This document shows, one piece after another, positions 7,289-61,518 of a stretch of DNA of 64,000 nt. The notes under the pieces are model-generated. The model was given only the letters and a program-made list of their open reading frames with translations, was not told the DNA's origin and searched no databases. Source of the DNA: a virus; the IMG/VR virus record IMGVR_UViG_3300020204_000009, positions 93,282 through 157,281 of that record. The stretch is one strand, 5' to 3'. The position numbers were made by a program, and so were the translations under genes. Position 1 is the stretch's first letter, and every line of letters starts with the position of its first letter.

Positions 7289-8529
7289 TGACTGTGATAT
7301 ATGGCACAATTGTAGATGATGCTGTTTATAAAGGAGTCATTGAATTTGGTACAAAAATCACCAAAACATATCCATGTGAATCTTCGCCTCCACATGCTCG
7401 TGTCTATTCCGATGATTATCTGATTTTCCCAGGATTTATTGACATCAATACCCATTGTCGAGAGGATACTAGCGGAGTCGAGACCCACAAAGAATGTTAT
7501 CAGACCGCTGGCATGGCGGCATTAAATGGCGGCGTGACTTATATTGCCGATATGCCAGATAATCACATCCCTACAGTTGATGCTGAAACATATGCGGCAA
7601 AACAGGAATTAGCGAAAAAATGCCCAATCGATGTGTTATTATATGCCGGAATTGGACCAAAAACTTCGCCATTTTCCAAACATGTGCCATATAATGTGTA
7701 CATGGGGCCAAATGTCGGTAATTTGTTTTTCAGAGATCAACATGAATTAGATGTGGCTCTCGAACGTTATCGTAATATGTCTGTCAGTTTTCATTGTGAA
7801 TGTCCGGTCATGTTGAATCGTTGCAAGAACGAATCGAAGCATGAAGCACGCCGCCCACAGATTTGTGAAACGGACGCGATCAATTTTGCGATTGGTTTAA
7901 TAAGCAAATACCGGTTGCAAGGGAAGATTTGTCAAGTTTCCACTGTTGCTAGTTTGAATTCGATTGATAGCATTCGCAGGTCCGGTGTTCACGTATATGC
8001 TGAGATTACTCCGCATCACCTGTTTTTCAATCTTGATATGATTAAGCCAGAGAATCGGCCATTTCTTCAGACAAACCCGCCCTTGAGAACAAAAGCGGAC
8101 GCCGAAGCCCTTTTACAAGCATTGAGGCGTGGTGAGTTTGAATTCTTGGCTTCTGGTCATGCTCCGCATACCGTCGCAGAGAAGATGACAAATGTTTCCG
8201 GAATTCCACATTTAGACACATATGGTGGCTTTGTGTCTTGGCTGATTTCTGCAGGAAATGTCGATCCAATCAGGATATTCAGAATGTGTTGCATGCTGCC
8301 CGGTCAATGGATCAATCAATTTACGGGCAGGAAAATCGGTCGGATTTTGCCGGATTACGAGGCTTCAATTACAATATTGAATATGACAAAATCAGTCGCA
8401 GATAGTCGTGGATTGTATACTAGATGTAATTGGAGTCCGTTTGATTTGCGGAAACTTCCCGGTTCTGTGGAGACGGTTTATTTGAAGGGGGAGAAGGTTG
8501 TCGATGGTGCTTATATGAAAAATTTCTAG
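7288..8529 (+). CDS. Dihydroorotase-like amidohydrolase, probable pseudoenzyme
   Basis: 413 residues with the amidohydrolase framework: PGFIDI at about 48, the TPHHLF segment, NPPLRT and GHAPHT (about 290-294), all landmarks of dihydroorotase (PyrC), the third step of pyrimidine synthesis. Most metal and catalytic positions are changed. The HxH pair is N54-T-H56, the carboxylated lysine position in the YKVFMG-type motif is N136, the CHVS histidine is Q216, and the catalytic Asp of TDHAPH is G290. Only H56 and H169 remain of the usual ligands. Known non-catalytic dihydroorotases act as structural partners of aspartate transcarbamoylase; a similar scaffold or decoy role is an inference. Confidence 0.85.
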   Translation: MTVIYGTIVDDAVYKGVIEFGTKITKTYPCESSPPHARVYSDDYLIFPGFIDINTHCREDTSGVETHKECYQTAGMAALNGGVTYIADMPDNHIPTVDAETYAAKQELAKKCPIDVLLYAGIGPKTSPFSKHVPYNVYMGPNVGNLFFRDQHELDVALERYRNMSVSFHCECPVMLNRCKNESKHEARRPQICETDAINFAIGLISKYRLQGKICQVSTVASLNSIDSIRRSGVHVYAEITPHHLFFNLDMIKPENRPFLQTNPPLRTKADAEALLQALRRGEFEFLASGHAPHTVAEKMTNVSGIPHLDTYGGFVSWLISAGNVDPIRIFRMCCMLPGQWINQFTGRKIGRILPDYEASITILNMTKSVADSRGLYTRCNWSPFDLRKLPGSVETVYLKGEKVVDGAYMKNF

Positions 8530-9065
8530 AATTTCTTTGTCGGATCGACATTTGGGAGATCTTCTTCTGCGGCTTTGATTAAGCCTTTCCCGTTTTTTGC
8601 TGTGCCTTTAAGTAAATGTTTAGCTTGGCTATTATTTACCTCTCCTCCAAGGTTTGAGAGGGAGCTAATATATCCTTCTGGTCCTAGCGACACTTTCAAT
8701 TTGTCTCTTAGCGGTTTGCTCAGAGCAGTCTTTTGGAGAGGCGTTCCTTTGGCTTTTCTTGGGTCAACATCGTACAAGGACGCTGATACCGTTGGCGATG
8801 TGAGAGACTTTAAGAAGGCCCAATCCTTGGCTCTGGATGCCGTTTCTGGTGCAGCCCCAGCCTGTTTAATGGCACTATCGACAACCCACTTCGTTTGTTC
8901 CCATCCTCTGGCGGTTGGTTTTTGAAGGAATGCTTGCATCGCTTGTGCCTCTGCACTTTTGGGGTCGAAGCTGGTGTTGATATATTGTATGAGATCCCCG
9001 ATCGCGTTGGCGGAATCGCGGATTGGTTCGTCTGATTTTGCTTCTGCGATAGTTCTGAGTTTCAT
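8526..9065 (-). CDS. Putative packaged internal protein with capsid-targeting-like N-terminus
   Basis: 179 residues of unknown fold, rich in Lys, Ser and Ala, with no membrane span. The N-terminus MKLRTIAEA matches the form of T4 capsid-targeting sequences (MKxxxxxxAEA) and contains an I-A-E|A site fitting the gp21 protease consensus. The same start occurs in the acetyltransferase at 61033 and the Tat-signal protein at 43161-44018. By analogy with T4 internal proteins it may be enclosed in the prohead, trimmed after Glu8 and ejected with DNA. There is no clear Shine-Dalgarno sequence, as for the other two. It is convergent with the dihydroorotase-like gene (4-base overlap). Confidence 0.7.
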   Translation of the reverse strand: MKLRTIAEAKSDEPIRDSANAIGDLIQYINTSFDPKSAEAQAMQAFLQKPTARGWEQTKWVVDSAIKQAGAAPETASRAKDWAFLKSLTSPTVSASLYDVDPRKAKGTPLQKTALSKPLRDKLKVSLGPEGYISSLSNLGGEVNNSQAKHLLKGTAKNGKGLIKAAEEDLPNVDPTKKF

Positions 9066-9080
9066 ACAATAGCTTTGTCG

Positions 9081-9088
9081 AATAAATA
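9081..9088 (+). promoter_or_regulatory. Candidate T4-late-type promoter element
   Basis: AATAAATA matches the T4 late consensus TATAAATA at seven of eight positions. It lies 50 bases before the GDP-mannose dehydratase ATG in an intergenic gap, with a gp55-like sigma factor encoded in the window. In an AT-rich gap such matches can arise by chance. Confidence 0.3.
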
Positions 9089-9137
9089 TGCTTGTTATGT
9101 GTTAGCTACGTAGATACAATCATTGGAGAATGAACGA

Positions 9138-15750: not shown

Positions 15751-15751
15751 G

Positions 15752-16951: not shown

Positions 16952-19810
16952 ATGCCAGTATACTTAAGTCCGGGCGTTTTCCCGCGAGAAATCGATCTGA
17001 GCGTGTTGCCAACGGCAGTGGGTCCACTTCGGCCAGCATTCATTGGTACTGCCAAGAAAGGGGCAATGAATCAGCCGTTGTTTATATCCAATTCTCAACA
17101 AGCCCTCGAAACATTCGGCGAACCGTTCCCCGAAAGTTATTTGATGTACGCAGTGCTTGCCTTCTTGGAAGAAGGTAATCAGTGCTACGTTATGCGGGTC
17201 GGTGTTGAATGTGAAGACGGGCAACCAGATGAACTATCTGACATCTGTATCGACACCTCTGGCGGTCGTGGGAAAGGCTGGGGACGAATTCCTCTTTTCA
17301 CTGGCATTGATTACGGTCGTATCAATCTTCGCCAAATTTCTGCGGATAGCCCCGTAACGTTCCATAACGCTGACGTAGCTAATATCGAATACAACGATGT
17401 TGATGTGTCCGGCACACACGGTCCAACTAACGCCACTCTCAACACCCTTGGGACCTATACCGGCGAGATCGATGACTCTTACGTCATGATTATCGCGTCG
17501 GCACCCGACGCTTCGGCATTTGCATCAGTTCAAGGTGCCGCATTCCAAGTTATTCGAAATAGTGACGGTGAGGTTGTTGCCGAAGGCACGCTCGAAGACG
17601 GCAACGATGATGGAATCTCTGAATGGATTCCGATTGGTGATGGTTTGTCGGTTCGAGTGAACGTCACATCTGGCGTTTTGGACGAAAACGACACCTTCAC
17701 TTTCACGGTGCAGCCAAATAACCGTTCGTTCTCGGTGTCCGTTGAAGGTGGTTCGGCGACTGTCTACCAGATGCCGATTGCATCGTACACCACAGTTGAC
17801 GACTTTGTTGCCGCGTTCAATGCGGTGATTGTTGCTGGTGGTGAAGATTACTTGATGGTCGAATACACGCTGGAAGACGGCGATACCGTTATCCCGCAAT
17901 TGCGAACGACCACCGCTGGCGAACGCATTCAAATTATAACTACCAGTGCGTGGGCGCAGGAAGTCGGAAGTCAACAATATGCATGGGATATTCCCCGCTC
18001 GTACTTGCTTGGTCTCGATGCTGGCCTATATGCGATCACCACGCAAAATAACCGCGTCAAGATCAATGCTATTGGCCAATCCGCAACAAAGACCATCGAA
18101 TTCAATGTGCCTGTTGGTCTGGGCCAGACTGCTGCTGCCATTGCGAATGTCATTGATCTGGCTGGTATCGTCGCAGGCGACGTTATTTGGGATTCGTTTG
18201 AATTGACCGTTCCGGGCGGCAACACCCACGTAGTGATTGTCACATCACCGGGGCATCAGTTTGATACACTCCATATGCAGGCCAGCTTCTCTAACCTCAA
18301 AACATTGCGGTTTGCGGAAGAATTGAACATTCCATATCCGTACAAGCGGGCCTACCGTGGCTTCAACGACAATCGGTTGACCTTACCAAATTCTGGCGAA
18401 GTTACCGCCGCAACGCCATTGTCCTGCGAAACTGATCCATTTGGTGCTGATTGTGCGGCTGATACAGCCTACTTCCAGAATATCGTAGGATGGCTGGTCG
18501 CTCCTAGCCCCGGAACATGGGTCGAGGGTGCCTCTGCCACCTTGGAACTGTTCACCGAAGGATTGGGTGACTCCGCTGGTCGGTACAAGCTGACCATCAA
18601 AGACGCGAACAAGCAAGTTGTTGATATTGTTGAAGACCTGTCATTCGATAAACGAATCGATCGGTACATCGCCAACGTCATCAATGCAGGAACTGAATAT
18701 GGCGGAACCAACGGTAACGCCTACATGAACTGGGAAGAACGTCCGGCGTTCTTGAACAACAACGTCAATGATCTCTCAACATTTGAAGTGCGGCAGCCGT
18801 CGCAACTCAATGAGAAAGAATACCAAGGTCAGGAAAACGGTATTCCGACCGATCCAGCATTTTCTAGCGAATTGGATGCTGCGGTGATTGGTAATCCCGC
18901 CATCAGTTCTGGAATCTACGCATTTCAGAATCCTGAAACGCTGGATATCAACCTGTTGCTCACACCCGGATTCTCAACTGGGGCTGTCATCGGAACGGCA
19001 TTGCAAATGTGCGAAAGCCGTGGTGACGTGCTTTACATCGTTGACCCACCGTTCGGCCTCCGACCGCAACAAGTTGTCGATTGGCACAACGGTATGCTCC
19101 TTTCTGATCTCCAAGCAGCGATCAACAGCAGCTACGGTGCATTGTACTGGGGCTGGATTCGGGTGTTCGATCAGTTCACTGCCGATGAACTTTGGATTCC
19201 GCCGTCTGGACACATTTCGGCGGTCTTCTCGCGAACCGCTCGCGAAGCAGAGCAATGGTTCGCTCCTGCCGGTCTTCGCCGTGGTCGATTGCTCACCGCA
19301 CTCGATGTCGAATACTCACCGACACAGGGCGAACGCGACTTGCTATACGGTTCTGGCAATTCGGTTAACCCGATTGTAAAGTTCCCGCAAGACGGAATCA
19401 CGGTCTGGGGTCAGAGAACTCTCCAAAGATCTCAGTCGGCTCTAAATCGTGTAAACGTCAGAATGCTCTTGATCTATGTGAAGAAGAATTTGGTTCGCTT
19501 GCTCAGAAACTTCATCTTTGAGCCAAACGACAGAATTCTTTGGAGACAGGTCAAGGCGACGGTTGACCCATTCCTTTCTGACATCCAAGCTCGTCGTGGT
19601 CTGACGGCTTTCAATGTCGTCGTGGACGAAACGAACAACACGCCGGAAAGAATTGACCGGAACGAGTTGTGGGTTTCGGTCTTCCTGAAGCCAACGCGAG
19701 CCGTTGAATTTATCGTGCTGAACCTTGTGGTTCTCCGAACAGGAGCGAGCTTCTCTGCTGAAGAGGTCTTGGCTGCTGGCGGCATTGTGACTTCGGCAAC
19801 AGCCGTATAA
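16952..19810 (+). CDS. Contractile tail sheath protein
   Basis: 952 residues against about 660 for T4 gp18, so it has extra inserted domains (roughly residues 100-480, beta-rich and Thr/Gly/Val-rich). The N-terminus SPGVFPREIDLS is the hallmark sheath beginning. The conserved C-terminal domain is clear: DPPFGLRPQQVVDWH, then APAGLRRGRL, WGQRTLQ, NVRMLLIYVKKNL, NDRILWRQVKATVDPFL and the terminal beta handshake strand ELWVSVFLKPTRAVEFI. GGAG lies 10-13 bases before ATG. It forms the contractile outer tube. Codon use is more GC-ending than in neighbours, consistent with high expression. Confidence 0.9.
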   Translation: MPVYLSPGVFPREIDLSVLPTAVGPLRPAFIGTAKKGAMNQPLFISNSQQALETFGEPFPESYLMYAVLAFLEEGNQCYVMRVGVECEDGQPDELSDICIDTSGGRGKGWGRIPLFTGIDYGRINLRQISADSPVTFHNADVANIEYNDVDVSGTHGPTNATLNTLGTYTGEIDDSYVMIIASAPDASAFASVQGAAFQVIRNSDGEVVAEGTLEDGNDDGISEWIPIGDGLSVRVNVTSGVLDENDTFTFTVQPNNRSFSVSVEGGSATVYQMPIASYTTVDDFVAAFNAVIVAGGEDYLMVEYTLEDGDTVIPQLRTTTAGERIQIITTSAWAQEVGSQQYAWDIPRSYLLGLDAGLYAITTQNNRVKINAIGQSATKTIEFNVPVGLGQTAAAIANVIDLAGIVAGDVIWDSFELTVPGGNTHVVIVTSPGHQFDTLHMQASFSNLKTLRFAEELNIPYPYKRAYRGFNDNRLTLPNSGEVTAATPLSCETDPFGADCAADTAYFQNIVGWLVAPSPGTWVEGASATLELFTEGLGDSAGRYKLTIKDANKQVVDIVEDLSFDKRIDRYIANVINAGTEYGGTNGNAYMNWEERPAFLNNNVNDLSTFEVRQPSQLNEKEYQGQENGIPTDPAFSSELDAAVIGNPAISSGIYAFQNPETLDINLLLTPGFSTGAVIGTALQMCESRGDVLYIVDPPFGLRPQQVVDWHNGMLLSDLQAAINSSYGALYWGWIRVFDQFTADELWIPPSGHISAVFSRTAREAEQWFAPAGLRRGRLLTALDVEYSPTQGERDLLYGSGNSVNPIVKFPQDGITVWGQRTLQRSQSALNRVNVRMLLIYVKKNLVRLLRNFIFEPNDRILWRQVKATVDPFLSDIQARRGLTAFNVVVDETNNTPERIDRNELWVSVFLKPTRAVEFIVLNLVVLRTGASFSAEEVLAAGGIVTSATAV

Positions 19811-43160: not shown

Positions 43161-44018
43161 TTAATTATGAATTTTTTGCAGTGAACGGTTGAGGCGGCGT
43201 AAGAAGCTTTCCGCCACACGGCCACCGTCGTCAGCCCATCGCATCATTTCATTGTCATGTTTAAGTTTTTCTCGTTCTCGCTGTTGTTCTCGCTCTAGTT
43301 GCTCTCGATGCTTTTGTTCATATTCTGCAAATCTTTTCTCGTGTCTAGATGTATCTAAATTGTGATTTTTGATTACTTCTTTGGCGGCTTCATCGATTTC
43401 AACATCAATATGAACACCATAATTATCCCACCATGTTTTGATCGGATCGTCACCGACCGGGCGGAGCTGGCCGGTATTGAAGTGGTGGGTTTTTGGGGCG
43501 GAACCATATTTAGGTATATTTATCCAGCCCTGCAGTTCGCCTTCTCGTGGGTGAAGTGAGAATGAATCTTCGTCATCTACTATATCATATAATTTTCCGG
43601 CGATTTTTATATCTTCACCGGCATTTGCTTTTCTTTCGATTTCAGAATATATATCAGGCAGAAGGTTGTTTACGAAAATCGCATCACCATCCCACTTATC
43701 AACTCCAAATTTTATGTCACCATATCCAATTTGTTTGGCAATGTTAGCCGCACTAGCGACAGATTTAAATTGATCTATTAAGGCTGGTTCATACCGGGTA
43801 GCATCAGTGCCAGTAAAAATTGTAAACACGCCCCAGGGAAAGCCACGGAATCGTTCCCACTGTGGAATTAACTTGTTTACAGCTTGAGCACCAATAGTAT
43901 TTTTTGCCACAGCTTGAGCTATTGGCGCATTTCCAGAAAGTGCTGCTGCCGCACCGGCCATACTTTTTAAGAAATTTCGTCTGGTGAATTCAGCTTCAAT
44001 TATCAGTGATAATTTCAT
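43161..44018 (-). CDS. Tat-signal protein with capsid-targeting-like N-terminus
   Basis: 285 residues. The start MKLSLIIEA has the same form as the starts of the genes at 8526-9065 and 61033-61518 and contains an I-I-E|A site. It is followed directly by a twin-arginine signal: TRRNFLK (residues 12-18), a hydrophobic Ala/Gly-rich core and an AQA cleavage site near residue 36. The body is soluble, with WERFRGFPWGVFTIF and GYGDIKFGVDKWDGDAIF, and ends in a highly charged coiled coil. Its own export through the Tat system, or delivery from the virion followed by export, are both possible. No known domain. An exact TATAAATA lies upstream; no clear ribosome site. Confidence 0.7.
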   Translation of the reverse strand: MKLSLIIEAEFTRRNFLKSMAGAAAALSGNAPIAQAVAKNTIGAQAVNKLIPQWERFRGFPWGVFTIFTGTDATRYEPALIDQFKSVASAANIAKQIGYGDIKFGVDKWDGDAIFVNNLLPDIYSEIERKANAGEDIKIAGKLYDIVDDEDSFSLHPREGELQGWINIPKYGSAPKTHHFNTGQLRPVGDDPIKTWWDNYGVHIDVEIDEAAKEVIKNHNLDTSRHEKRFAEYEQKHREQLEREQQREREKLKHDNEMMRWADDGGRVAESFLRRLNRSLQKIHN

Positions 44019-49917: not shown

Positions 49918-50442
49918 CTATTCTTCCGTACCATAGAGCGGTTCTGGTTCGTGGCTTACGGATTTAGTGAAAACCAACTGTCGGCTTAATGATGTTACAA
50001 AGACTGCACACCAATAACGCCCAACTTTCGCGAACCCACAATTTTTATATTTTCTGGCTAGAATGTGTCTACGATGTCCGGAAGATGACATCCAACCTTG
50101 CATGACTGACGTGACTGTGCTATAACCACGTGCGATATTCTCTCCCATTGCTTGTGGACGATGTCCTTCATCCCTGATTCTGCTAGCAACGTTCGAACCA
50201 CGTGATCCTCTGTGCGACAACAATTCGTTATCGGCCATCCATTTTGCATGCTTCTCTGCGGCTGTAACTAACTTACTATCGAGAGTTAATATACTTACAC
50301 CCGCTTTTGTACGTTCATTGTTGTGAGCGACTAACAATTCTCCAGCAACGGACGTTGGTGTAGGTGGTGGCAATGGGGGTTGTGGCGGAGTAGGTCGGTT
50401 TCGTCTAAATATGTCTCGGAGCCAGTACCAAAAATCGCTCAT
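49918..50442 (-). CDS. CAP-domain (YkwD/SCP-like) protein
   Basis: 174 residues from ATG 50442 (GAGGG upstream; a longer frame to 50502 lacks one). A short amphipathic N-terminus and a Pro-rich linker (about 15-32) are followed by a complete CAP fold. Its landmarks are LLVAHNNERTKAGV, AAEKHAKWMADNELLSHRGS, ENIARGYSTVTSVMQGWMSSSGHRRHILARKYKNCGFAKVG and a final beta strand with Cys. The two His and Glu of the CAP cavity are present. CAP proteins of bacteria are usually secreted, but no signal peptide is seen. It sits on the reverse strand between terminase and portal. Confidence 0.85.
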   Translation of the reverse strand: MSDFWYWLRDIFRRNRPTPPQPPLPPPTPTSVAGELLVAHNNERTKAGVSILTLDSKLVTAAEKHAKWMADNELLSHRGSRGSNVASRIRDEGHRPQAMGENIARGYSTVTSVMQGWMSSSGHRRHILARKYKNCGFAKVGRYWCAVFVTSLSRQLVFTKSVSHEPEPLYGTEE

Positions 50443-50470
50443 TGTTTTTACCCTCAATGGCACCAATTTC

Positions 50471-50478
50471 AGTAAATA
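50471..50478 (+). promoter_or_regulatory. Candidate late promoter before the portal gene
   Basis: AGTAAATA matches TATAAATA at six of eight positions, 25 bases before the portal ATG in a gap between divergent genes. This is the logical position for a head-gene promoter. Weak sequence evidence alone. Confidence 0.25.
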
Positions 50479-50502
50479 TAGAATAGATTTTGAGGACCAC
50501 AT

Positions 50503-52482
50503 ATGCCGAGTAACTGGCTAGTTTTCGACAGAATACGTGCACTTACCCGGCAGCACCGTATTTATCAAGCAGAACGAGTATATCAAGATCAAGCACATCT
50601 TGATCGTTTAACTGCTGGCGGCGAATTTCTTGACTTTAATCAACAAGCCGCTATCCTCGATCAGACCAATCTACAGATTAATAGATTGGAGAGGTATAAA
50701 GATTATGAACAAATGGATCAGACTGGCGAAATCAGCCTTGGTTTAGATTTATATGCCGATGAAGCTAGTTTAGTCGATCCTGAACGAAAACACACATTGA
50801 TTATTCGAGCACGCAATCGGCGGCTGAAGCACGAGCTTGAAGATTTATTCTTCAATACGCTTCGTTGGGACACATTCTGCCGTCCCACAGTCCGATACCT
50901 ATGCAAATATGGTGATTCTCCGTTCGAGGTAATTCTGGACGCTAATCGTTCCGGCGTCTCTGCTCTTAAATTCATGAACGTCTACAATTTCACCAGAATT
51001 GAAACACGATATGGTGATCTTGTTGGATTCTTTTATATGGATGCAATTTGGCCGCGTCCAATGTTTCTTCATCCGTGGCAAGTAATGCATTTGCGGTTGA
51101 CCAGCTTTGAAAACATCTACCATCCATATGGTCGTTCAGTGTTAGATGGCGGACGCAAGGCATTCAAACAATTGCGGCTGATGGAAGATGCTGCGTTGAT
51201 TTACAGAATTACTCGTGCACCGGAGAAACGTAAATTCACTATTCCTGTCGGCATGATTCCGCCAAAAGAAGTGCCGGAATATATGCAGATGATCGCACGG
51301 AATTTCAAACGCCAGCGATTCTATAATCCAACTACCGGCACGTTCGACGAGCGATATTCTCCACTTATTCAAGAAGATGACTTCTTCTTGCCGCGTCGTC
51401 CAGACGGAACTGGTCCGGATGTTGACGTTTTGCCGGGTGCTGAGAACCTCGACCAAATTAAGGATATCGAATATTTCAAGAAGAAAATGGTGTCTCCAAT
51501 GAAAATCCCGTTCGCACGGGTTGGAATTGGGGAGGGGGCTGGCGAAGCCAGTGAAAAATCGCTCTCACAATCACACTCGGAATTTTCGAAAGCTGTTCAA
51601 TGGATACAACGTGAAGTTGCCACCGGATTAACCAAAATTGCTATCATTCACCTCGCGTTACGTGGATATCGTGTCGAAGATCTGCGTGGATTTGAAGTTG
51701 CTCTTACTGCAACTTCTGCGATGGAAGAATTGTATAGAATCGAAACATGGCAAACTCGCGTAGCTGTGATGGCCGATCTCAAGGATTTGGGATGGTTTCC
51801 GAAAGAATGGATTGTGACTCACTTTACCGACTTGTCTCCCGATGAAATTCAAGAATTGAAGGATATGGAGCAGACTGCTACGCAAAGTGGCAGCAGTGGT
51901 GGTGGCTTGGATCTTGGAGTTGGTGATGAAGCACCAACCCCACCAACTGATGCGGCTGATATTCCCACGGATGCGGCTGGTGGTGCTCTAGAAGACGCAG
52001 CGGGTGCTCTGGGGGCTGAAGCTGGTGGAGACACTCCTCCGCCAATTGAAGGATTCGATTATGCTGCTGAGAAACGCTTGATACTTGAACTCCGTAAACA
52101 AGGTCGCATGAATGAAGCCAAAGTTATCGTGGAGCGATGGGCGGCTCGGATAGGTCGATCAGCAGAAAAACCTCTGATTGAACATAGTAGCGGCTACGAT
52201 TACATTTTGGCTTCCAAAGAACTCGATGGGTTATCGGGATCTCCTCCTACCCTTCGTCATGAAGGTAATGGGAAATCACCCTCTACGATTTTGGAAGAAA
52301 TTTACAACCCAAACAAAGATAAAGAGTTACTCGTCGAATGGTCTGTTGACGAAGACACTCGCAATGACGCAATCAAAGAGATTTACGACGTTCTGATGGA
52401 TGGATCGCTAGTAGAATCCGAAGAGGAAGTAACTGAAGTTACCGAAAGCGATCTTCCGTCAGTTGCCGTTAGTGGCCTTTAG
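50503..52482 (+). CDS. Portal protein (gp20-like)
   Basis: 659 residues with TGAGGA before ATG. The N-terminal and wing regions contain GEISLGLDLYADEASLVDPERKH, then FFNTLRWDTFCRPTVRYLCKYGDSPFEV, HPYGRSVLDGGRKAFKQLRLMEDAALIYRITRAPEKRKFTIPVG and KKMVSPMKIPFARVG, the recognisable T4-type portal core. The C-terminal third (about 460-659) is an Ala/Gly/Asp-rich extension not found in T4. It forms the 12-subunit vertex for packaging and neck attachment, and starts the head operon. Confidence 0.88.
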   Translation: MPSNWLVFDRIRALTRQHRIYQAERVYQDQAHLDRLTAGGEFLDFNQQAAILDQTNLQINRLERYKDYEQMDQTGEISLGLDLYADEASLVDPERKHTLIIRARNRRLKHELEDLFFNTLRWDTFCRPTVRYLCKYGDSPFEVILDANRSGVSALKFMNVYNFTRIETRYGDLVGFFYMDAIWPRPMFLHPWQVMHLRLTSFENIYHPYGRSVLDGGRKAFKQLRLMEDAALIYRITRAPEKRKFTIPVGMIPPKEVPEYMQMIARNFKRQRFYNPTTGTFDERYSPLIQEDDFFLPRRPDGTGPDVDVLPGAENLDQIKDIEYFKKKMVSPMKIPFARVGIGEGAGEASEKSLSQSHSEFSKAVQWIQREVATGLTKIAIIHLALRGYRVEDLRGFEVALTATSAMEELYRIETWQTRVAVMADLKDLGWFPKEWIVTHFTDLSPDEIQELKDMEQTATQSGSSGGGLDLGVGDEAPTPPTDAADIPTDAAGGALEDAAGALGAEAGGDTPPPIEGFDYAAEKRLILELRKQGRMNEAKVIVERWAARIGRSAEKPLIEHSSGYDYILASKELDGLSGSPPTLRHEGNGKSPSTILEEIYNPNKDKELLVEWSVDEDTRNDAIKEIYDVLMDGSLVESEEEVTEVTESDLPSVAVSGL

Positions 52483-52604: not shown

Positions 52605-55600
52605 ATGACATCGAATACAACCGGCCCGGTACGAATTGACAGTCGCAAATTCCTTGGTGCATTGAACGATTCTGCTCAGGCAAAAGTTGCCGTTTTCGAA
52701 GAGCGGATCGAACAAATGGGCCGCTCTGCTGGTAAACAGTGGAGACTAGCTGCTCTTCACGCCAAGCAACTTTATATTGAAGATGTGAATGCGCAACAAT
52801 TCTTCATTGCAGAACACGTCCGCGAGGCCCATGGCAAGGTCACAATCACTAATATTAGACCTCTCGAAATTGTTGAAGAAGAAAAGCAAGGTCTGTTTGC
52901 TGAAACCTGCGAGAAATTGGTTTCGGCAATTGAAGAAAACGACCAAAAGGGCATGCAGGTTTCATTTGACCGCATGAAAGCCCAGCGATTCTCAGGTCGG
53001 GCTGTTCCTTACTCTGGTGCTGTTCGATGCCGAGATGGTGTTCTGCGACGCATCAGTATTCAACCGAACAATGTCAGTCTCGAAAACAATGTGCGGTCAA
53101 AACTGGTCGCTGTGATTGTCGAGAATCTGCGAGATCGCGTTCTTGTCGAGAACGGAACAGTCGTCTCCGGTTCATTCGGCGATGGAGAACCGATCTCGTT
53201 GCCTGTCACGAAATGGGCGGCACGAAAGCTGGTCGCTCGACGGATGATGGAAGCCGCCAAGAATGCATACTGGTCCGAAGGATTCCAAAACCGCGTCTAT
53301 CACGCTGCCAGATTGGTGTCTGAAGCGAAAATCGACGACGCTGTTCAGGCTGTGACACCATTCTTAGAATCGATGGAGGAATTCACACTCCTCAATCGTG
53401 CTCAATTCCAGACATTGGTTGAGAACGCATTGGCTTCGAAAGCGATTTTCAACCAGCAACTGTGTGATGACACCGCTACGCTCTTCTTCAGAACCAATAT
53501 GAAGCTGAGCCGCCGTAAGATTATCGATGAATGGAGAAATATTGCCAAGAAGTCGGAACATCCGGCGTTGATGGAAAATGTGCGGATTCTCGAAGAATCG
53601 AAGAATTTCGAGAGTGCATACCAGAAATTCTTGGCATTGATTTTCGAAACAATTTCAAACCGAGAAGTCGCCGCCGAAGCTTTGGCCACGACTTTGGATG
53701 TCTTGCGAAACAAGACTCCGAAAATTCGGGAGTCGCACGAATTGTCGAGCAAGTTGAGCAGCTTGATCACGCGGTTGAAGGACAAAAACTTCGACGATGC
53801 TGCGATCTATGAAGCCGAGGATTTGATCGCGACAATTCAAGAAGAGCTTGCTGCCGCCGACACACTTCAGGGATTCGATCAAATGCCACCTGGAGGTGGT
53901 CCGGCTGGAAGTGATGCTCTCGATCTTAGTGGCGATCTTGGGGGCGGCGGTGGTGCTCCTGTCATCAATATCAACTCTCCGCTGATTCAAATTGGTGGTC
54001 AGAGTTCTGGCGGTGGTGCCGGTAAACCGGGTGCTGGAGCCGCTGGAGAAGTCCCTCCGCCTTCGCCAGCCGGTGGTGACGAAGATCTGGATGCCCTGTT
54101 GGGTGCTGGCGGTGGTGCTCCTCCGGCTCCGGCCCCTGCTGCTGCTCCTGCTGCTCCTGCTGCTCCTGCTCCGGGTGCTCCTCCGGCTCCGGGCGGTGCT
54201 CCGCCGATGGAAGGCAAGTACAAGAAGAAAAAACCACTATCAGAATCCCGTCCTGTTCATTATGAGATGAAGAAGGACGAAGATGACGATATGCCGTGCG
54301 ATGACGATGAGATTGAGGAAGGCTTAGATCCATATGCTATTCGGCGTGATGAAGGAATCGATCTCTCAGAAGGTGTTCATATCACTGATTACGGCACGCC
54401 GGTAATCACTGATGAAGGAGACCTCGAAAAGATCATCAGAATCATGCAGCGTTTGGCGACCGAAAATCGTCTGTCTGGTAAGCTTCTCGAACAAAGCCTT
54501 CCCAGCATGGCGAAAGCCTCGTTGAAAGCCTTGGGAATGCGAATCCCAGAAGGCAAGATGTCGAGAGCACTGGAACAGGTTGTAACGTGCTTTTTGGAAA
54601 GTGACGACGATAAGGGTGGTCCATTCCCTGGTGCCGCTCCGCCGTTCAAGAAGAGTGGTTCGGACGATTTTGTTTGTGATGATTCTGGCGATTCCGGCGA
54701 TTCCGAGAAGCCATGGGAATCAGATGATTCGGACGATGAGGGTGTGGCCGAAGATCAGTACCGAAGCCCACGAATTACTCCACGCGGATATGGCCGTGCC
54801 AGCGTTGGGAAGACGACCAAGGAAAGCCGCATTAGATGGGGACAGGCACAGAAAGATGCTGTTCTTGGTGAATATGCGGGAGTTCGATTCATCTTCGACC
54901 ATGGTGGCTCTGATGAATCTCTCACTCCTGTCATCTTGAGTGAAGACGGATCGGTTGAAATTCCAATTCCGAAAGCACTTTATGAAAGCGCGTTTGCCGC
55001 TGCGAAGATGAGCTACGGCGATCCGCGTGCATTCACCAAATGGATCAGTGAATCGATTGAGCAATTGCGTCCAATTGATGACGGTGAAGACAATGCCTTA
55101 AACGAGGCCATGGCGAAAATCACGACCGGTCCGGATGGAACGATATCCGTCGAAGTCTCTGATGATATCGATGTTGGAAAACTTGGAGCCGGTGGTGAAG
55201 GCGGCGATGATGGTATGATCGCCGACATGGGCGACTCCATGGATGATATGGGCGATGCCGGTGATGATACTTCCGGAATGTCGCCGGTCGATTCTATCAA
55301 TGCTCCCGGAGATGATGCTGGAGACATGGGTGGCGATGATGATGCCATGCCAGACTTCGAAAATGGCGAAGATTCGATGGATGGAGAAGTCGCTGGTCCA
55401 CCAGAAATGGGAGACGAGGAGGACGAGGAGGAAGAGGAGGAAGTGGAGGAAGAGGACGAAACCGAAGGAATGGTCGAAGATCAGGATGTGACCAGTCCAT
55501 CGAATGCCAAATATACCAAGCACGTAAAGGATAATTTACGTGATATGCCAACTCCGAAGTTGCCGAAGGCCACTGACGACGAGTTAGAGGACATTGGTCC

Positions 55601-55661
55601 GACCGTCAAGAAGGATGATGGCACCGGAACCAAGCCGCCAACGGCGAAAAAGGGAGATTAG
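52605..55661 (+). CDS. Giant prohead core-like protein (gp67/gp68 position)
   Basis: 1018 residues with TAGGAG before ATG. The first ~410 residues are helical (EERIEQMGRSAGKQWRLAALHAKQLY; LARKLVARRM-type helices). About 420-540 is a Gly/Pro/Ala tract. The rest alternates acidic low-complexity stretches (Asp/Glu runs near 930-960) with short helical islands such as LEKIIRIMQRLATENRLSGKLLEQSLPSMAK. The position between portal and protease is that of T4 gp67/gp68, which are small acidic prohead-core proteins. This would be a greatly enlarged counterpart, probably digested by the protease at its many (L/I)xE sites. Inference from position and composition. Confidence 0.6.
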   Translation: MTSNTTGPVRIDSRKFLGALNDSAQAKVAVFEERIEQMGRSAGKQWRLAALHAKQLYIEDVNAQQFFIAEHVREAHGKVTITNIRPLEIVEEEKQGLFAETCEKLVSAIEENDQKGMQVSFDRMKAQRFSGRAVPYSGAVRCRDGVLRRISIQPNNVSLENNVRSKLVAVIVENLRDRVLVENGTVVSGSFGDGEPISLPVTKWAARKLVARRMMEAAKNAYWSEGFQNRVYHAARLVSEAKIDDAVQAVTPFLESMEEFTLLNRAQFQTLVENALASKAIFNQQLCDDTATLFFRTNMKLSRRKIIDEWRNIAKKSEHPALMENVRILEESKNFESAYQKFLALIFETISNREVAAEALATTLDVLRNKTPKIRESHELSSKLSSLITRLKDKNFDDAAIYEAEDLIATIQEELAAADTLQGFDQMPPGGGPAGSDALDLSGDLGGGGGAPVININSPLIQIGGQSSGGGAGKPGAGAAGEVPPPSPAGGDEDLDALLGAGGGAPPAPAPAAAPAAPAAPAPGAPPAPGGAPPMEGKYKKKKPLSESRPVHYEMKKDEDDDMPCDDDEIEEGLDPYAIRRDEGIDLSEGVHITDYGTPVITDEGDLEKIIRIMQRLATENRLSGKLLEQSLPSMAKASLKALGMRIPEGKMSRALEQVVTCFLESDDDKGGPFPGAAPPFKKSGSDDFVCDDSGDSGDSEKPWESDDSDDEGVAEDQYRSPRITPRGYGRASVGKTTKESRIRWGQAQKDAVLGEYAGVRFIFDHGGSDESLTPVILSEDGSVEIPIPKALYESAFAAAKMSYGDPRAFTKWISESIEQLRPIDDGEDNALNEAMAKITTGPDGTISVEVSDDIDVGKLGAGGEGGDDGMIADMGDSMDDMGDAGDDTSGMSPVDSINAPGDDAGDMGGDDDAMPDFENGEDSMDGEVAGPPEMGDEEDEEEEEEVEEEDETEGMVEDQDVTSPSNAKYTKHVKDNLRDMPTPKLPKATDDELEDIGPTVKKDDGTGTKPPTAKKGD

Positions 55662-55664: not shown

Positions 55665-56447
55665 ATGTTGCCTAGCCGTCGATCATATGCCACGCTTATG
55701 GAAGAGCGTGGTTTCCCTGCCATCAATCGGGGATTAATCGCTGAAACTGGTGTTATTCCTACCGGTATGCAGCTTATCCGTGATGTTTTCCCATTCGAAA
55801 TTATTGATCGGAAAGAAACAGTAACGGAAGACGTTAACGGCAAAGAAGTTCCAGTGATGCGAGTCACTGGGCTTTTCCAAATGGGCGACAAAGAGAACGC
55901 CAATCAACGCTTCTATCCAAGCAATGATGTTCTTGCTCCTGCTGTTCGGGGAATTCAAGAAGACGTTTCTCATCGAGCCGTGATGGGTGAATTTGACCAC
56001 CCAGCCGATGCCAAAATCCATCTCGACCGCGTAAGCCATCTGATCACGAAAGTGTGGATGGATGGGAAGAAGGTATTCGGTGAAGCTGAAGTGCTTCACA
56101 AACTGCCTTGCGGTTCATACCTTCGCGGGTTGTTTGAACATAAAGTTCGAGTTGGTATTTCATCCCGTGGTGTGGGTGATATGGAAGTCGCGGAACACCA
56201 TGGACATCAGATTTATCGCGTGATGCCTGGATATTCATTTGTGACGTGGGACGCTGTGGCGGAACCGTCAGTGAATGGGGCAATTCTGCAAATCCAAGAA
56301 AGCCTGAGTCGGCGGTTGAAACCAATTAAGGAATCCCGCAATCGATTCAGTCCGCAAGCATACCAAAATCTCTTGGTTCAAGAGATTGAAAGTTACTTCG
56401 GTTTGGACAAGCGTGGACCAAAGATTCCGAGCCGGTCTCGGAGATAA
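55665..56447 (+). CDS. Prohead maturation protease (gp21-like, peptidase S80)
   Basis: 260 residues with GGGAG before ATG. Catalytic motifs of the family are present: GEFDHP with His112 and VGISSRG with the nucleophile Ser (about 166-167), separated by the expected beta segment LITKVWMDGKKVFGEAEVL. A GLIAE|TG sequence at residues 23-29 fits self-cleavage at the (L/I)xE consensus. It degrades scaffold and trims capsid and internal proteins, which makes it the probable processor of the MKL-type N-termini found elsewhere in the window. Confidence 0.88.
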   Translation: MLPSRRSYATLMEERGFPAINRGLIAETGVIPTGMQLIRDVFPFEIIDRKETVTEDVNGKEVPVMRVTGLFQMGDKENANQRFYPSNDVLAPAVRGIQEDVSHRAVMGEFDHPADAKIHLDRVSHLITKVWMDGKKVFGEAEVLHKLPCGSYLRGLFEHKVRVGISSRGVGDMEVAEHHGHQIYRVMPGYSFVTWDAVAEPSVNGAILQIQESLSRRLKPIKESRNRFSPQAYQNLLVQEIESYFGLDKRGPKIPSRSRR

Positions 56448-56509
56448 CACTAAGTTTTCTATATTCGAGCAAAAATAACTTTCAGCAAGCTCGTGAGGAG
56501 TAGATTGTT

Positions 56510-57229
56510 ATGAACAAGATCAAGACACTCTTGGAAAAGGCAGGTTGCAACCAGGACTTGGTTGGCAGCATCTGCGAGGCCCTTGAGGACTACAAGACAA
56601 CTCTTCGTGAGCAATACGATTCTGACTACCAGAATCGTATCGAGCAGGCTAAGAAAGTCTGCATCGAAGAGACGGAAGCACACAAGAGAGAACTCGCTCG
56701 TCGAGTTCAGATCTTCTGTGAGACGAAAGCTGCTGCGATTGAGGCACAGCTTGCTAAGCAGTCGGCCCTTAGTGAGTCCGAGGCTGTTACCAGGCTTAAG
56801 AACGTTATGTCCCTCCTTGAGGGCATCGAGCCGAATGGTGAGCCAAATGGACAAGCTACAGCCGCGTTGGACAAGGCAAAGCTCAAGATCCAGCAGGTCA
56901 ACGAGGAACGCACTCGTGCAGTCGAAGTTGCCAATCGCCAAGTAGCGATCTCCGAGAAAGCTCTCAAGGAGAATCGACGGTTGGCCGCAGAGAACGCACA
57001 ACTCAAGCAACGCTTGGGTACGGTCTCTGAGTCACGCCAAACACAAGGCGGACGAAAGAGAATTGACGTAAGCCGTACTGCCACTCACCCGGTAACGACT
57101 CGTCAGACGCTCCTCGAAAATCAGGACCGACGCCAGCCACAACGCAAGGCTTCGCCTGTTCAAACCCAACCACAACGTGGGTTTAACATTGGTGACATTG
57201 CCGAGGGTATGGACGAAGACCTGATCTAA
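56510..57229 (+). CDS. Major prohead scaffold protein (gp22-like)
   Basis: 239 residues, GAGGAG site. Almost entirely helical, Glu/Lys/Ala/Gln-rich with coiled-coil heptads, and several (L/I)xE candidate cleavage sites (TLLE, SLLE, TLLE). The C-terminus is basic and ends in a short hydrophobic-acidic tail (FNIGDIAEGMDEDLI) of the type that binds capsid protein. Position between protease and major capsid gene is as in T4. Codon use is like that of the capsid gene, suggesting high expression. Confidence 0.8.
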   Translation: MNKIKTLLEKAGCNQDLVGSICEALEDYKTTLREQYDSDYQNRIEQAKKVCIEETEAHKRELARRVQIFCETKAAAIEAQLAKQSALSESEAVTRLKNVMSLLEGIEPNGEPNGQATAALDKAKLKIQQVNEERTRAVEVANRQVAISEKALKENRRLAAENAQLKQRLGTVSESRQTQGGRKRIDVSRTATHPVTTRQTLLENQDRRQPQRKASPVQTQPQRGFNIGDIAEGMDEDLI

Positions 57230-57272: not shown

Positions 57273-58892
57273 ATGTTACCAACGCGAAGCAGCCGTACTG
57301 CGGTGTCTGGCAACGCTCGTCGCCGTCATCTGGTTGAAGGTGCGGGAGCCGGTCGCCGTCCAATTACGGAAGAAACCGATTTGCACAAGGCATCAGTTTT
57401 TCACGAGTCCAAGAAGAATGCACTCGTCAAGAAGTGGTCCCCGGTGCTCAGCAAGTGCCGTGAAGTCACGCCGCAGAAATTCGGCTTGATGGCGGCAATT
57501 CTCGAAAACCAGTACAAGCACAACAATCCGGAAAATCGCTCGGTCATCTTCGAAGACCAGACGACAACCGCGAACATCGCCGATTTTACTCGGTTCGCTC
57601 TTCCGCTCATCCGGAAGTCCTATCCGAAGTTGATTGCTGACAATCTCGTCGGCGTTCAACCGATGAGCCAGCCAGCCAGCTTGATCTTCTACATCCGATA
57701 TCGTTACGCTCTCACGAAGGGACAGACGGTTGCCGGAACGCAGATCATGCGTCAGAACACCGCTCAAGGCTCTGCCCGTCAGAACGGTTGGGCACTTGAC
57801 CCGTATTACTCTTCGCAAGAAGTTCGTGGCGAAGACGCGACGATTGTCGGTGGCACAGTGATTTCAGCGACTCTGGCCCATCGCCCGGTTCTCGCTGGAA
57901 CGGTCGTGGTCGAAGCATTCGCCAGCGAAGCCGATGCAGGCCCGAACTGCGATGACGCAGTGCCTTGCTTGCGAGTTACCTTCGATGCGGACGGCAGTCC
58001 CGATACCGTGTTGGTTGGTGACTGCACTGAGTTCACCGCTAACATCTCTGTTGATACGGTTACTGCTGGTGCGACAACCTTCAACCACACAACCGGTGCA
58101 GTTCAGATCACTCTGAGTGCCGGTGTTTTCCCGGGTGGAGCTGTCGCACGGGTGAACTACGAGTACGATCTCGAAGCCAACCCGTTCCAGCCGGAAGTTA
58201 CGTTGAGCATCGACAGCGATTCGGTCGCTGCTATCACCCGCAAGCTGAAGACCTCTTGGTCGCTGGAAGCCGCTCAAGACCTGAAGTCGGTGCACAACAT
58301 CGATGCCGAGAGCACCTTGACGGACTTGATGGCCGACGAAATGGTCGCCGAAATCGACCGCGAAATCATCAACGACTTGATCATTTCCGCCTCGATTCGT
58401 GCTGATCACAACTTCGCGACGGCAGCCGGTGCATCGGTCAACTTCACAGACCGCAACATCGCGTTGATGTACAAGACGCTCGAAGTCGCCAACATCATCC
58501 ACCGCACCACTCTCCGTGGTCCGGCGAACTGGATGGTGATGAGTGCTGACATCTGCTCGAAGTTCGAGCAGTTGAATGACTTCCGTGCATCGGACGCCTT
58601 CACTACAGAAGGTGTGGATGTCGGCATCATGAACGTCGGCACGATCCAAGGCAAGATGCGGATTTACAAAGATCCGCTCTTCCCGAATTGCAAGATCCTG
58701 CTCGGATTTAAGGGCAGCAGCGTTCTGGATGCGGGCTACTTCTACGCCCCATACATTCCGTTGCTCAGCACGCCGACCGTTCTCGATCCAAACAGCTTCA
58801 CGCCGAACAAGGGTATCATGACCCGATACGGCAAGAAGCTCATCGAAGACGGTGGTCTGTACTACGCAACCATCACGGTCTCTAACCTCTAA
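57273..58892 (+). CDS. Major capsid protein (gp23-like)
   Basis: 539 residues with AAGGAG upstream and a strong terminator after. T4 gp23-type features: an N-terminal scaffold-binding segment of about 30 residues with possible protease sites (HLVE|G, PITE|E), then TTANIADFTRFALPLIRKSYPKLIADNLVGVQPMSQPASLIFYIRYRY, the core signature of this HK97-fold family. An inserted beta domain lies about 190-310 (TVVVEAF, LRVTFDADG, TVTAGATTF). Then WSLEAAQDLKSVHNIDAESTLTDLMADEMVAEIDREIINDL and a conserved C-terminus (ANWMVMSADICSKFE, YGKKLIEDGGLYYATI). The GC-ending codons fit maximal expression. Confidence 0.93.
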   Translation: MLPTRSSRTAVSGNARRRHLVEGAGAGRRPITEETDLHKASVFHESKKNALVKKWSPVLSKCREVTPQKFGLMAAILENQYKHNNPENRSVIFEDQTTTANIADFTRFALPLIRKSYPKLIADNLVGVQPMSQPASLIFYIRYRYALTKGQTVAGTQIMRQNTAQGSARQNGWALDPYYSSQEVRGEDATIVGGTVISATLAHRPVLAGTVVVEAFASEADAGPNCDDAVPCLRVTFDADGSPDTVLVGDCTEFTANISVDTVTAGATTFNHTTGAVQITLSAGVFPGGAVARVNYEYDLEANPFQPEVTLSIDSDSVAAITRKLKTSWSLEAAQDLKSVHNIDAESTLTDLMADEMVAEIDREIINDLIISASIRADHNFATAAGASVNFTDRNIALMYKTLEVANIIHRTTLRGPANWMVMSADICSKFEQLNDFRASDAFTTEGVDVGIMNVGTIQGKMRIYKDPLFPNCKILLGFKGSSVLDAGYFYAPYIPLLSTPTVLDPNSFTPNKGIMTRYGKKLIEDGGLYYATITVSNL

Positions 58893-58920
58893 TCGAGACC
58901 ATTCGATCCGCATCAATTCG

Positions 58921-58950
58921 AGTGGCCCGGTTGACAACAACCGGGCCACT
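58921..58950 (+). terminator. Terminator after the major capsid gene
   Basis: A 13-pair perfect stem (58921-58933 with 58938-58950), loop ACAA, followed by TTCGTTT. The core GGCCCGGT/ACCGGGCC is shared with the hairpin at 11228-11261. The stop codon is 29 bases upstream of the stem. Confidence 0.75.
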
Positions 58951-59069
58951 TTCGTTTATATGTATTGAAAAGCGAGGGGCAATTCCCTTGAGAATTATTC
59001 ACGCAAATTTATCTTGGATGTTGCGTGACATCCTGAAAATACGACCTGTTACCCGTATGGAGATGATGC

Positions 59070-59432: not shown

Positions 59433-59469
59433 GCCTTCGTCCGACGTGAAGAGTGACAGCACTGACGTG

Positions 59470-59494
59470 AGACCCGGCCTAAAATGCCGGGTCT
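59470..59494 (+). terminator. Terminator after the secreted repeat gene
   Basis: AGACCCGGC pairs perfectly with GCCGGGTCT (9 pairs) around a 7-base loop CTAAAAT, followed by TACTGTATTT. It separates the repeat gene from the nuclease operon. Confidence 0.65.
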
Positions 59495-59568
59495 TACTGT
59501 ATTTAGGCATCGTTTGGAAGTATTTAAAATCATGCGAGAGTCCAATCGAGTGCCACACGGATCAAGTT

Positions 59569-60066: not shown

Positions 60067-60079
60067 TATATAAGGTACT

Positions 60080-60979
60080 ATGGCTACCAATTTTGATGAT
60101 ATTACGTTCGACGCACAATCGCATACCTATAGGCTTGGTAATCAGGCTCTGATTCCTGTTACGTCCATTGTGAAATGGTTGACTCCAGAATTCCGTAGTG
60201 ACGAAATGTTGGAAACAAAAGCCGCCACATCTGGAAGATCGAAAGCGGATATCCAAGCCGAATGGGATTCGAAGCGTGATATTGGATTAGACAAAGGTAC
60301 GCGGGTCCACAATTATATCGAGAATGTTCTTGAAGGACGTGATCCGCGTTTATTGCTTTCTGTCAACGACCATTTACATGAAATGAAACAATTTGACATC
60401 GCCTGGGGGCGTATGTGCTCCAGATTGTCAGCGAAATTTGATCGTAAGGAGTGGACTGTTGGTGATGCTGAATTAGGTGTTGCTGGGCGAGTGGATGCTA
60501 TTTTACGGATCGTTATTGAATCCGAAGAAAAGCGATGCTTGTTCGACTGGAAGACTGGGAAATTCATGGTTCGGAAGTATGCTCGTGAAACGATGCTTCC
60601 GCCATTTGATGATCTTCCATGTTGTGAAGAAATTAAATATAGTATTCAGTTGAGCCTATATCGCTTGATTATCGAACGAAATACCGATGAGCGATTATTC
60701 AATGGATTTATTCTACATCTCCCTGCCGAATATCAACACAATCTTTACAATGTAATCGATTTGCGAGAACGTCTTGAAACGTGGCTGCTTAAAATGCGGG
60801 CAGAAGGGCGTCTAGGCGATCCAGAGGGCGACAAGAAAGCCTTGCGAGTGGCTAAATCTCTGGATCAATTCGATGATGATATTCTTCGAATTCTGTCGCC
60901 GCAATCTCGCAAAAAATTGTTATTGAAAGCGGCGAAGTTGTTAAAGCGTGGCCAGCAATATTTTAATGAGCCGACATAG
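60080..60979 (+). CDS. PD-(D/E)XK nuclease of the RecB/Cas4-like family
   Basis: 299 residues with AAGG before ATG. Motifs in order: GTRVHNYIE (family His), GVAGRVDAIL (catalytic Asp), FDWKTGK (D-x-K with basic residue) and YSIQLSLYRLII (Q-x3-Y). These define the RecB-type exonuclease fold. Probably degrades or processes DNA ends in phage recombination or host DNA breakdown. The last seven codons and the stop form the left arm of a 29-base perfect inverted repeat. Confidence 0.85.
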   Translation: MATNFDDITFDAQSHTYRLGNQALIPVTSIVKWLTPEFRSDEMLETKAATSGRSKADIQAEWDSKRDIGLDKGTRVHNYIENVLEGRDPRLLLSVNDHLHEMKQFDIAWGRMCSRLSAKFDRKEWTVGDAELGVAGRVDAILRIVIESEEKRCLFDWKTGKFMVRKYARETMLPPFDDLPCCEEIKYSIQLSLYRLIIERNTDERLFNGFILHLPAEYQHNLYNVIDLRERLETWLLKMRAEGRLGDPEGDKKALRVAKSLDQFDDDILRILSPQSRKKLLLKAAKLLKRGQQYFNEPT

Positions 60980-61027
60980 AAGAAGGCCGCTTTCACGACC
61001 TTCTTCTATGTCGGCTCATTAAAATAT
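60958..61027. repeat. 29-base-pair perfect inverted repeat
   Basis: Left arm 60958-60986 is the exact reverse complement of right arm 60999-61027, with a 12-base spacer CCGCTTTCACGA. The left arm contains the end of the nuclease gene including its stop; the right arm ends 5 bases before the acetyltransferase ATG. No U-tract follows, so it is not a standard terminator. RNA folding would bring the acetyltransferase start next to a very stable stem. Confidence 0.95.
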
Positions 61028-61032
61028 AGTGC

Positions 61033-61518
61033 ATGAAACTTCGCACTATACTCGAATTCGTAGAACCTGAGATTAATGCGGCAGATCCCGAAGATTGGGA
61101 GGCTGCTGATCAGGCAGACCGTATTGCTAGCAATTCGGGAATTAGAATATCTCGGAATAAAGAGTTAACACTAGTCGCACAAGTAGGTGGCGAAGTTGTC
61201 GGGGCGGTTTGGTCAGCGTTCGAACGTGACGATGAAGCAAGTCAAGAATACGGAGAGGATGTATACCGCTTCGATTTTGACGTTGCAGTTGATCCAAAAT
61301 CGCGAGCGATGGGCATGGCGTCTGCTCGGATTGGGCCAAAACTTATTGATGCTGCTTTAGACCACTACCGCTCACTGAAATCTGAATTTGGAAATGCCTA
61401 CATCCGTGTGTATGTTGTGAATCCGAAATTAGCCGGTTATCTGGAACGACGTTACGGATTTGAACCGGAAGGACGTGGATGGTCTCAAGATAGTTTACAT
61501 ATGATTTATCACGGATAA
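61033..61518 (+). CDS. GNAT acetyltransferase with capsid-targeting-like N-terminus
   Basis: 161 residues. The GNAT fold is visible: LTLVAQVGGEVVGAVWSAFERDD, motif A VDPKSRAMGMASARIGPKLI (R-x-x-G-x-A, acetyl-CoA binding, about 86-105) and AYIRVYVVNPKLAGYLERRYGFEPEG (motif B). The N-terminus MKLRTILEF precedes the fold and matches the putative packaging/cleavage signal of two other genes (I-L-E|F). No ribosome site is seen; the 29-pair hairpin ends 5 bases upstream. Substrate unknown; modification of a host protein after ejection is a possible role. Confidence 0.85.
   Translation: MKLRTILEFVEPEINAADPEDWEAADQADRIASNSGIRISRNKELTLVAQVGGEVVGAVWSAFERDDEASQEYGEDVYRFDFDVAVDPKSRAMGMASARIGPKLIDAALDHYRSLKSEFGNAYIRVYVVNPKLAGYLERRYGFEPEGRGWSQDSLHMIYHG

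Follow-up and report, generated by a model that had tools for sequence, protein, structure and literature searches.

The window considered here, a stretch of 64,000 nucleotides (nt), is made up of bases 93,282-157,281 of a 157,281-base uncultured phage record (IMGVR_UViG_3300020204_000009; G000), and contains three genes, P0001, P0002 and P0003, whose products share the form of their first eight residues, MKLRTIAE, MKLSLIIE and MKLRTILE (Table 1). By its sequence the phage is a distant relative of T4, its terminase, portal, gp21-type protease and gp23-type capsid protein being recognised by PHROG models. A preliminary description of this DNA had proposed that the common start is a capsid-targeting sequence (CTS) and that the three proteins are packaged, trimmed after Glu8 and delivered into the host. 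The three genes are confirmed as intact open reading frames (ORFs) beginning MKLRTIAEA, MKLSLIIEA and MKLRTILEF, and their products are unrelated as described, with no Pfam or PHROG family in common. The capsid-targeting interpretation is supported by further tagged genes, by the sequence at the presumed maturation site of the capsid protein, by homologues that keep the tag and by effector-like domains on some of the proteins. The shared N-terminus is probably a shortened, lineage-specific CTS of the T4 kind, MK[LI]xx[IL]xE, often joined to a leaderless promoter, on proteins that are packaged, cut and injected.

The bodies of the three proteins differ. P0003 is a GNAT acetyltransferase, as had been recognised earlier (PF00583, 24.9 bits, cut-off 20.7), and the Tat (twin-arginine) signal ascribed to P0002 is matched at the margin of significance, with 22.5 bits for PF10518 falling just below the cut-off of 22.7. 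P0001 is predicted by AlphaFold2 to consist entirely of helices, with a mean pLDDT of 76.8 and values below 50 at residues 1-10, and a model with a low-confidence start on a better-predicted helical body is compatible with a removable tag. When PDB and BFVD were searched with the P0001 model, no structure matched at E 0.001 or below. P0002 folded alone gave a pLDDT of 42.5 and its model was not used. Sequence searches of solved structures returned a single match at E 0.55 for P0002 and none for P0003, tblastn of the three proteins against a phage collection gave no match, and among 196 stretches that fit a peptide pattern in a search for bacterial homologues of the P0003 GNAT none was confirmed.

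Table 1. Features of the window and further tagged genes of the record; positions are those of the window unless record coordinates are indicated.
Feature	Coordinates	Strand	Basis or remark
P0001, 179 aa, tag MKLRTIAE then A	8526..9065	-	intact ORF starting MKLRTIAEA
Proposed CTS of P0001, residues 1-8, predicted cut after Glu8	9042..9065	-	
Promoter-like element CAAAGCTA of P0001, ending 4 nt before ATG	9070..9077	-	weight matrix, not plain AAANATA search
P0002, 285 aa, tag MKLSLIIE then A, then twin-arginine (Tat-type) signal	43161..44018	-	intact ORF starting MKLSLIIEA
Proposed CTS of P0002	43995..44018	-	
Tat-type signal FTRRNFLKSMAGAAAAL of P0002, starting at third residue past predicted cut	43938..43988	-	PF10518, just below cut-off
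P0003, GNAT acetyltransferase, tag MKLRTILE then F	61033..61518	+	intact ORF starting MKLRTILEF; PF00583
Proposed CTS of P0003	61033..61056	+	
Promoter-like element AAAATATA of P0003, ending 4 nt before ATG	61021..61028	+	plain AAANATA search
Portal	50503..52482	+	PHROG; promoter-like TAAATATA at 50473-50480
1018-aa protein in gp67/gp68 slot	52605..55661	+	gene order; element AAAATCTA starting 46 nt upstream
gp21-like prohead protease, own LIAE then T site	55665..56447	+	phrog_207, E 1.5e-38
Promoter-like element CAAAAATA of scaffold gene, starting 40 nt upstream	56470..56477	+	Shine-Dalgarno sequence in between (by eye)
Scaffold-like protein, gp22 position, 239 aa, start MNKIKTLLE	56510..57229	+	gene order, no PHROG match
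Major capsid protein, predicted maturation site VIFE94 then D	57273..58892	+	phrog_138, E 2.4e-81
Fourth tagged ORF of record	17,885-18,364 (record)	+	motif start
Fifth tagged ORF of record, 78 aa	74,303-74,539 (record)	-	motif start
Doubtful sixth candidate, start MKLRNIHSYIPE	47,697-48,440 (record)	-	

Frequency and conservation of the tag

Relatives were drawn from 143 IMG/VR relatives of the capsid protein, narrowed to 80 loci, with several of these lying on contigs of 100-408 kb; homology searches with P0001, P0002 and P0003 covered 44 records picked from these 80 loci, ORF-level counts covered six records taken whole (1,101 called ORFs), and a DNA pattern for MK[L/F]xx[I/L]xE, in which the second codon was AAA or AAG by construction, was applied to 21 clade records (3.6 Mb) with the reversed pattern as control. 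The search for further starts of the MKL(R/S)xIxE type, as suggested in the preliminary description, yielded two more in this record and many in the relatives. Five of the 203 called ORFs of the record begin with the motif, where residue shuffling leads one to expect 0.42 and internal methionines 0.21, and in the six whole records the motif opens 30 of 1,101 ORFs (summed shuffle expectation 1.5) and follows 8 of 4,691 internal methionines. Even in G010, where the control was least favourable, six were observed and 1.29 expected. Clade-wide there were 51 pattern matches, not every one checked as a gene start, to 6 of the reversed control; four of the 51 are common to G011 and G012, and 15 of the 21 records have at least one. 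Synonymous codons vary between copies, including those for L3, I6 and E8, and thus the tag is not a DNA repeat.

Nine outgroup records (2.36 Mb) gave 33 matches to a looser pattern with any residue after MK at the eight-residue spacing, with 19 for the control, and eight of the 33 were counted as of the MKL/MKF type, three of these with an internal stop. At the T4 spacing, distant T4-like phages gave 42 matches against 19, among them T4 itself and MKNFKQFLSE of cyanophage S-SKS1 (translated from the listed DNA). It is very improbable that the likeness of these short N-termini arose by chance or by gene duplication. Near-identical starts do mark paralogous tagged genes, three in G004 and two in G003, as duplication would have it; the excess over expectation, both in this record and across the clade, and the lack of any family common to the bodies of P0001, P0002 and P0003 count against such an origin.

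The tag is conserved in the homologues found for P0001 and P0003. Homologues lacking this start, which the preliminary description had named as a sign against its proposal, were not encountered for either protein. Relatives of P0001 occur in three of the 44 records (G005, G006 and G017; E 5e-8 to 6e-17), and all three start MKLxxIxE at an overall identity of 27-32%. M1, K2, L3, I6 and E8 are five of the eight invariant columns of this family, a count in which later columns could not score because one relative is a 75-aa stub ended by its contig. The relatives of P0003, again in three of the 44 records (G012, G018 and G021), all keep an [IL]xE start: one reads MKLSILHE then S (40-43% identity), and a sequence identical in two records reads MRLREIHICE then F, a lengthened tag (53% identity), with CAAAGATA ending five bases before its ATG. 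The combination seen in P0002 has a counterpart by eye in record L029, where a protein starting MKLSAIIEVDSRRDFLKK bears the tag plus a twin-arginine motif; CAAATATA ends 4 nt before its ATG, and the protein is ended at 68 residues by the contig.

The tag and the maturation protease of the phage

The tag ends in a sequence that the phage's own protease may recognise. The clade capsid proteins have [IL][LFM]E[DEN] at the position corresponding to the T4 maturation site in all 61 distinct rows of the alignment, by which the clade site is placed, and since [IL]xE stands there throughout, the tag closes with what is presumably the protease consensus. The gp21-like protease was correctly identified in the preliminary description, together with an LIAE site of its own. 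When the 175 proteins are ranked by excess of [IL]xE, the 1018-aa protein comes first (24 occurrences, 10.8 in shuffled sequence) and the scaffold-like protein second (10 and 3.5), as expected for core proteins shredded by the protease. The 1018-aa protein, with the strongest excess of the set, is an unusually large probable core protein for the gp67/gp68 slot.

The start of the scaffold-like protein resembles the tag (KIKTLLE in MNKIKTLLE, KLRTILE in MKLRTILE), and among relatives' scaffold N-termini, three rows without a usable start being left out, 37 of 52 distinct sequences have [IL]xE within the first 16 residues. The tag may thus, loosely, mimic the scaffold N-terminus.

A promoter-like element before genes that lack a Shine-Dalgarno sequence

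Alignment of the upstream regions of 56 of 58 distinct tagged starts revealed a tendency towards C-A-A-A-n-A-T-A at -12 to -5. Because the initial weight matrix had tagged genes as its training set, it was circular for the association between tag and element, and a held-out matrix and a plain regular expression were therefore used. The top 5% by the held-out matrix includes 9 of 26 motif genes and 43 of 1,004 others (p=1.7e-6). The plain AAANATA ends exactly 4 nt before the ATG in 24 of 1,030 genes, while at 49 other spacings the mean is 2.4 and the maximum 8. An earlier and looser expression, fitted by eye to the tagged genes (18/30 motif genes, 34/1,071 others), was not relied on.

These spacing-4 genes are distinctive in two respects. 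None of the 24 has a Shine-Dalgarno (SD) sequence, all SD calls here being made by a crude regular expression, and 17 of 24 encode [IL]xE with the Glu at residues 6-16 (138/1,006 of genes without the element at this spacing). When genes with MK[LI]..[IL].E are removed the latter association persists (8/15 against 121/989, p=0.0002). Where AAANATA lies 15-40 nt upstream, an SD sequence is present in 52 of 86 genes, compared with 305 of 920 without it (p 9e-7); its reverse complement lies at that distance in 30 genes, seven with an SD sequence, and at spacing 4 in none. Judged by the spacing, the SD association and the reverse-complement control together, the element acts as a promoter would, and with such an element at spacing 4 the mRNA is predicted to start at or beside the ATG. 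On this evidence, the missing SD sequences would largely be explained by a promoter-like element that gives leaderless late mRNAs. The preliminary description had noted that all three genes lack a clear SD sequence and had called this unusual; taken singly it is not, as just 61 of the 149 ORFs of at least 100 aa in the record have one, but the motif genes as a group are depleted (2/26, against 357/1,006 genes without the spacing-4 element).

A similar element starts 30-46 nt upstream of the scaffold, portal, sheath and 1018-aa protein genes, and 6 of 12 genes examined reach the threshold; upstream of the capsid, terminase and protease genes it stays below threshold. In the window, P0003 has the element by plain search and P0001 by weight matrix only. 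Coupling of tag to element is common, not universal. In the six records the element stands at the leaderless distance, give or take 1 nt, before 39 genes, and 25 of these have an early [IL]xE, a count made with the matrix trained on tagged genes. When 59 mid-size ORFs of the record were compared with PHROG, the matches listed included no late sigma factor. Translation driven by bS21, an idea taken from PMC9723584, was considered and set aside, PF01165 being found in 0/21 records.

Could the tag be no address at all, and instead serve to initiate translation in genes that are leaderless or lack an SD sequence, as an AUG-AAA-rich start followed by a hydrophobic ramp? The co-occurrence of tag and SD-less spacing-4 element is what would be expected from this, as is a second codon of AAA or AAG (fixed by the search pattern). 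It is nevertheless unlikely, for the synonymous variation at L3, I6 and E8 suggests selection on residues, I6 and E8 fit the capsid-protein consensus, the 8 of 15 spacing-4 genes that have [IL]xE at 6-16 outside MK[LI]..[IL].E include starts such as MTVDPNKIAKMITE then D, and motif genes without the element retain the tag.

Two spacing-4 genes of G003, at 132301-133959 (-) and 154648-155088 (+) (L145, L146), share a longer start, MT[VI]DP[NK][KQ]IAKMITEDPDEINPLD, which is possibly a second class of tag. As to gene setting, motif genes stand opposite to both neighbours in 7 of 26 cases (103/969 of others, p=0.018) and spacing-4 genes in 6 of 24 (p=0.022), and a codirectional upstream gene lies within 40 nt of 15 of 26 motif genes and 479 of 969 others (p=0.43). 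The proposition that tagged genes are solitary was dropped as weak.

Proteins that carry the tag

Among the 58 distinct tagged starts, 25 proteins were scanned against Pfam. A NUDIX protein passes the cut-off (67.7 bits, 1.3e-18), its domain beginning at residue 11, directly past the tag; an ART-PolyVal-like protein (25.8 bits, 2.1e-5, cut-off 31.2) and an RNase_T-like protein (21.2 bits, 4.6e-4, cut-off 24) do not. No second domain above cut-off was found in any of the 25. By eye, two tagged proteins contain HExxH and one family has a conserved WCT stretch. This stretch occurs in three tagged paralogues in tandem (L135:10496-15177) and, again by eye, in L183 and L092; the L135 copy and the L183 protein that were scanned had no Pfam match.

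It has also to be asked whether the proteins with the tag are simply structural or prohead-core components, packaged and cut like the others and without action in the host. T4 gp22, gp24 and gp21 likewise have [IL]xE near their starts, P0001 is helical throughout by prediction and matches no known fold at E 0.001, and 23 of the 25 scanned proteins are below the Pfam cut-off, all of which would suit such a role. The enzyme domains of some tagged proteins, with GNAT and NUDIX above cut-off and ART-PolyVal and RNase_T below, and the patchy repertoire, with relatives of P0001, P0003 and P0002 in 3, 3 and 0 of 44 records, make it improbable.

Several further observations weigh against a packaged and injected effector set. 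The term effector rests on few proteins, as 2 of the 25 scanned exceed the Pfam cut-off. The tag pattern is without a match in 6 of the 21 clade records, one of them 178 kb long, and P0002 has no distant homologue in any of the 44 records (0/44). Within this record the 78-aa tagged ORF shares 4 nt with its upstream neighbour and is a weak case, and a 446-aa ORF at 31307-32647 (+) of the record (L006:12307-13647), starting MKLHTIHTDS, has the spacing-4 element but no [IL]xE until residue 24. The link between tag and element is likewise incomplete: [IL]xE at 6-16 is missing from 7 of 24 spacing-4 genes, the held-out test leaves 17 of 26 motif genes outside the top 5%, and no promoter-like element was recognised upstream of P0002. 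The resemblance to the scaffold is loose, only 25 of the 37 scaffold [IL]xE sites being at position 9-10 (counted manually), and the T4 gp55 family phrog_234, the only family sought, was found in 0/21 records, none of which is known to be complete.

Neighbouring genes

A CAP-superfamily gene at 49918-50502 (-) (PF00188, 1.1e-19) is reversed between the terminase and portal genes. An ORF at 61495-62544 (-) contains, by eye, the stretch GSSSMPHKRNP, which we take to resemble the fumarase/adenylosuccinate lyase superfamily.

Comparison with known systems

The T4 record offers the closest comparison. IPII and IPIII start MKTYQEFIAE then A, gp22 MLKEQLIAE then A and gp24 MAKINELLRE then S, and the gp23 site is FLTE then A at E65; the cuts fall after the Glu of these [IL]xE sites. 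IPI starts MKTFKEFTST and has its first [IL]xE at residue 19. Like the internal proteins and Alt of T4, the present phages place a short N-terminal tag ending in [IL]xE on unrelated proteins, alongside a gp21-type protease and a gp23-type capsid protein. The T4-like shape seen in the preliminary description holds for this ending and not for the length, the tag having ten residues in T4 (MKTYQEFIAE) and eight, MKLxx[IL]xE, in the clade; the protein repertoire differs as well, and in T4 an AAAGGA stretch precedes the ipII and ipIII starts, as judged by eye. T4 internal proteins have been described as diverse defence proteins in which only the CTS is conserved (PMC3012670), and almost any protein can reportedly be packaged by means of the T4 CTS of about ten residues (PMC7697877).

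In the phiKZ-like giant phage SPN3US, inner head proteins are also cut after Glu by a head-maturation protease, whose motif is AxE and several of whose propeptides exceed 100 residues (PMC5694885), in contrast to the short [IL]xE tag of the clade. Polyvalent proteins of phages and conjugative elements, proposed to be co-injected with DNA, include ART, GNAT and metallopeptidase domains (PMC5512222); they differ in having several domains per chain, whereas the tagged proteins have at most one recognised domain and the shared tag. The late promoters of T4 and cyanophages, TATAAATA and NATAAATA, are likewise 8-bp AT-rich elements (PMC2984593) upstream of head and tail genes. The clade consensus, CAAAnATA, differs from them and stands 4 nt from the ATG of many tagged genes, and phrog_234 is absent from the matches as noted; of the 17 TATAAATA sites in a 50-kb stretch of T4, the 14 with a downstream ORF include none closer than 21 nt to its ATG.

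Leaderless phage transcripts as such are already known, phage transcripts often being leaderless (PMC5312081). The open-licence literature searched yielded no report, for this clade, of a CTS eight residues long or of packaged proteins encoded by leaderless genes. As far as that search extends, three things are new: the short clade tag, its occurrence on a patchy set of proteins in uncultured phages and the joining of the tag to a leaderless promoter-like element.

Concluding remarks

The sequence of events envisaged begins with late transcription from the short promoter-like element, which in many tagged genes lies 4 nt before the ATG, so that the mRNA would be leaderless and an SD sequence would not be needed. 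The tag, scaffold-like, would dock the protein to the prohead core, where the gp21-type protease would cut after Glu8 as at the capsid-protein site, and the freed protein would be packed together with the DNA and enter the next host at injection. There the varied proteins, among them acetyltransferase, NUDIX, ART-like and Tat-type members, may act early.

A bolder and more tentative idea, for which the chances are somewhat short of even, is that a cassette of about 36 bp (the 8-bp late promoter element, 4 nt and the 24-nt start-plus-tag) serves at once as transcription start, leaderless translation start, prohead address and protease release site, such that any ORF placed behind it would become a late, packaged and injected effector without a ribosome-binding site. 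In P0002 the cut would moreover expose the Tat signal, and the protein could then be exported to the periplasm by the host Tat system. Injected effectors of uncultured phages are normally indistinguishable from other hypothetical genes, and the tag together with the fixed spacing of the element provides a rule by which candidates can be listed from sequence alone. If the proposal is true, the clade's set of early-takeover and anti-defence proteins would be open to direct test.

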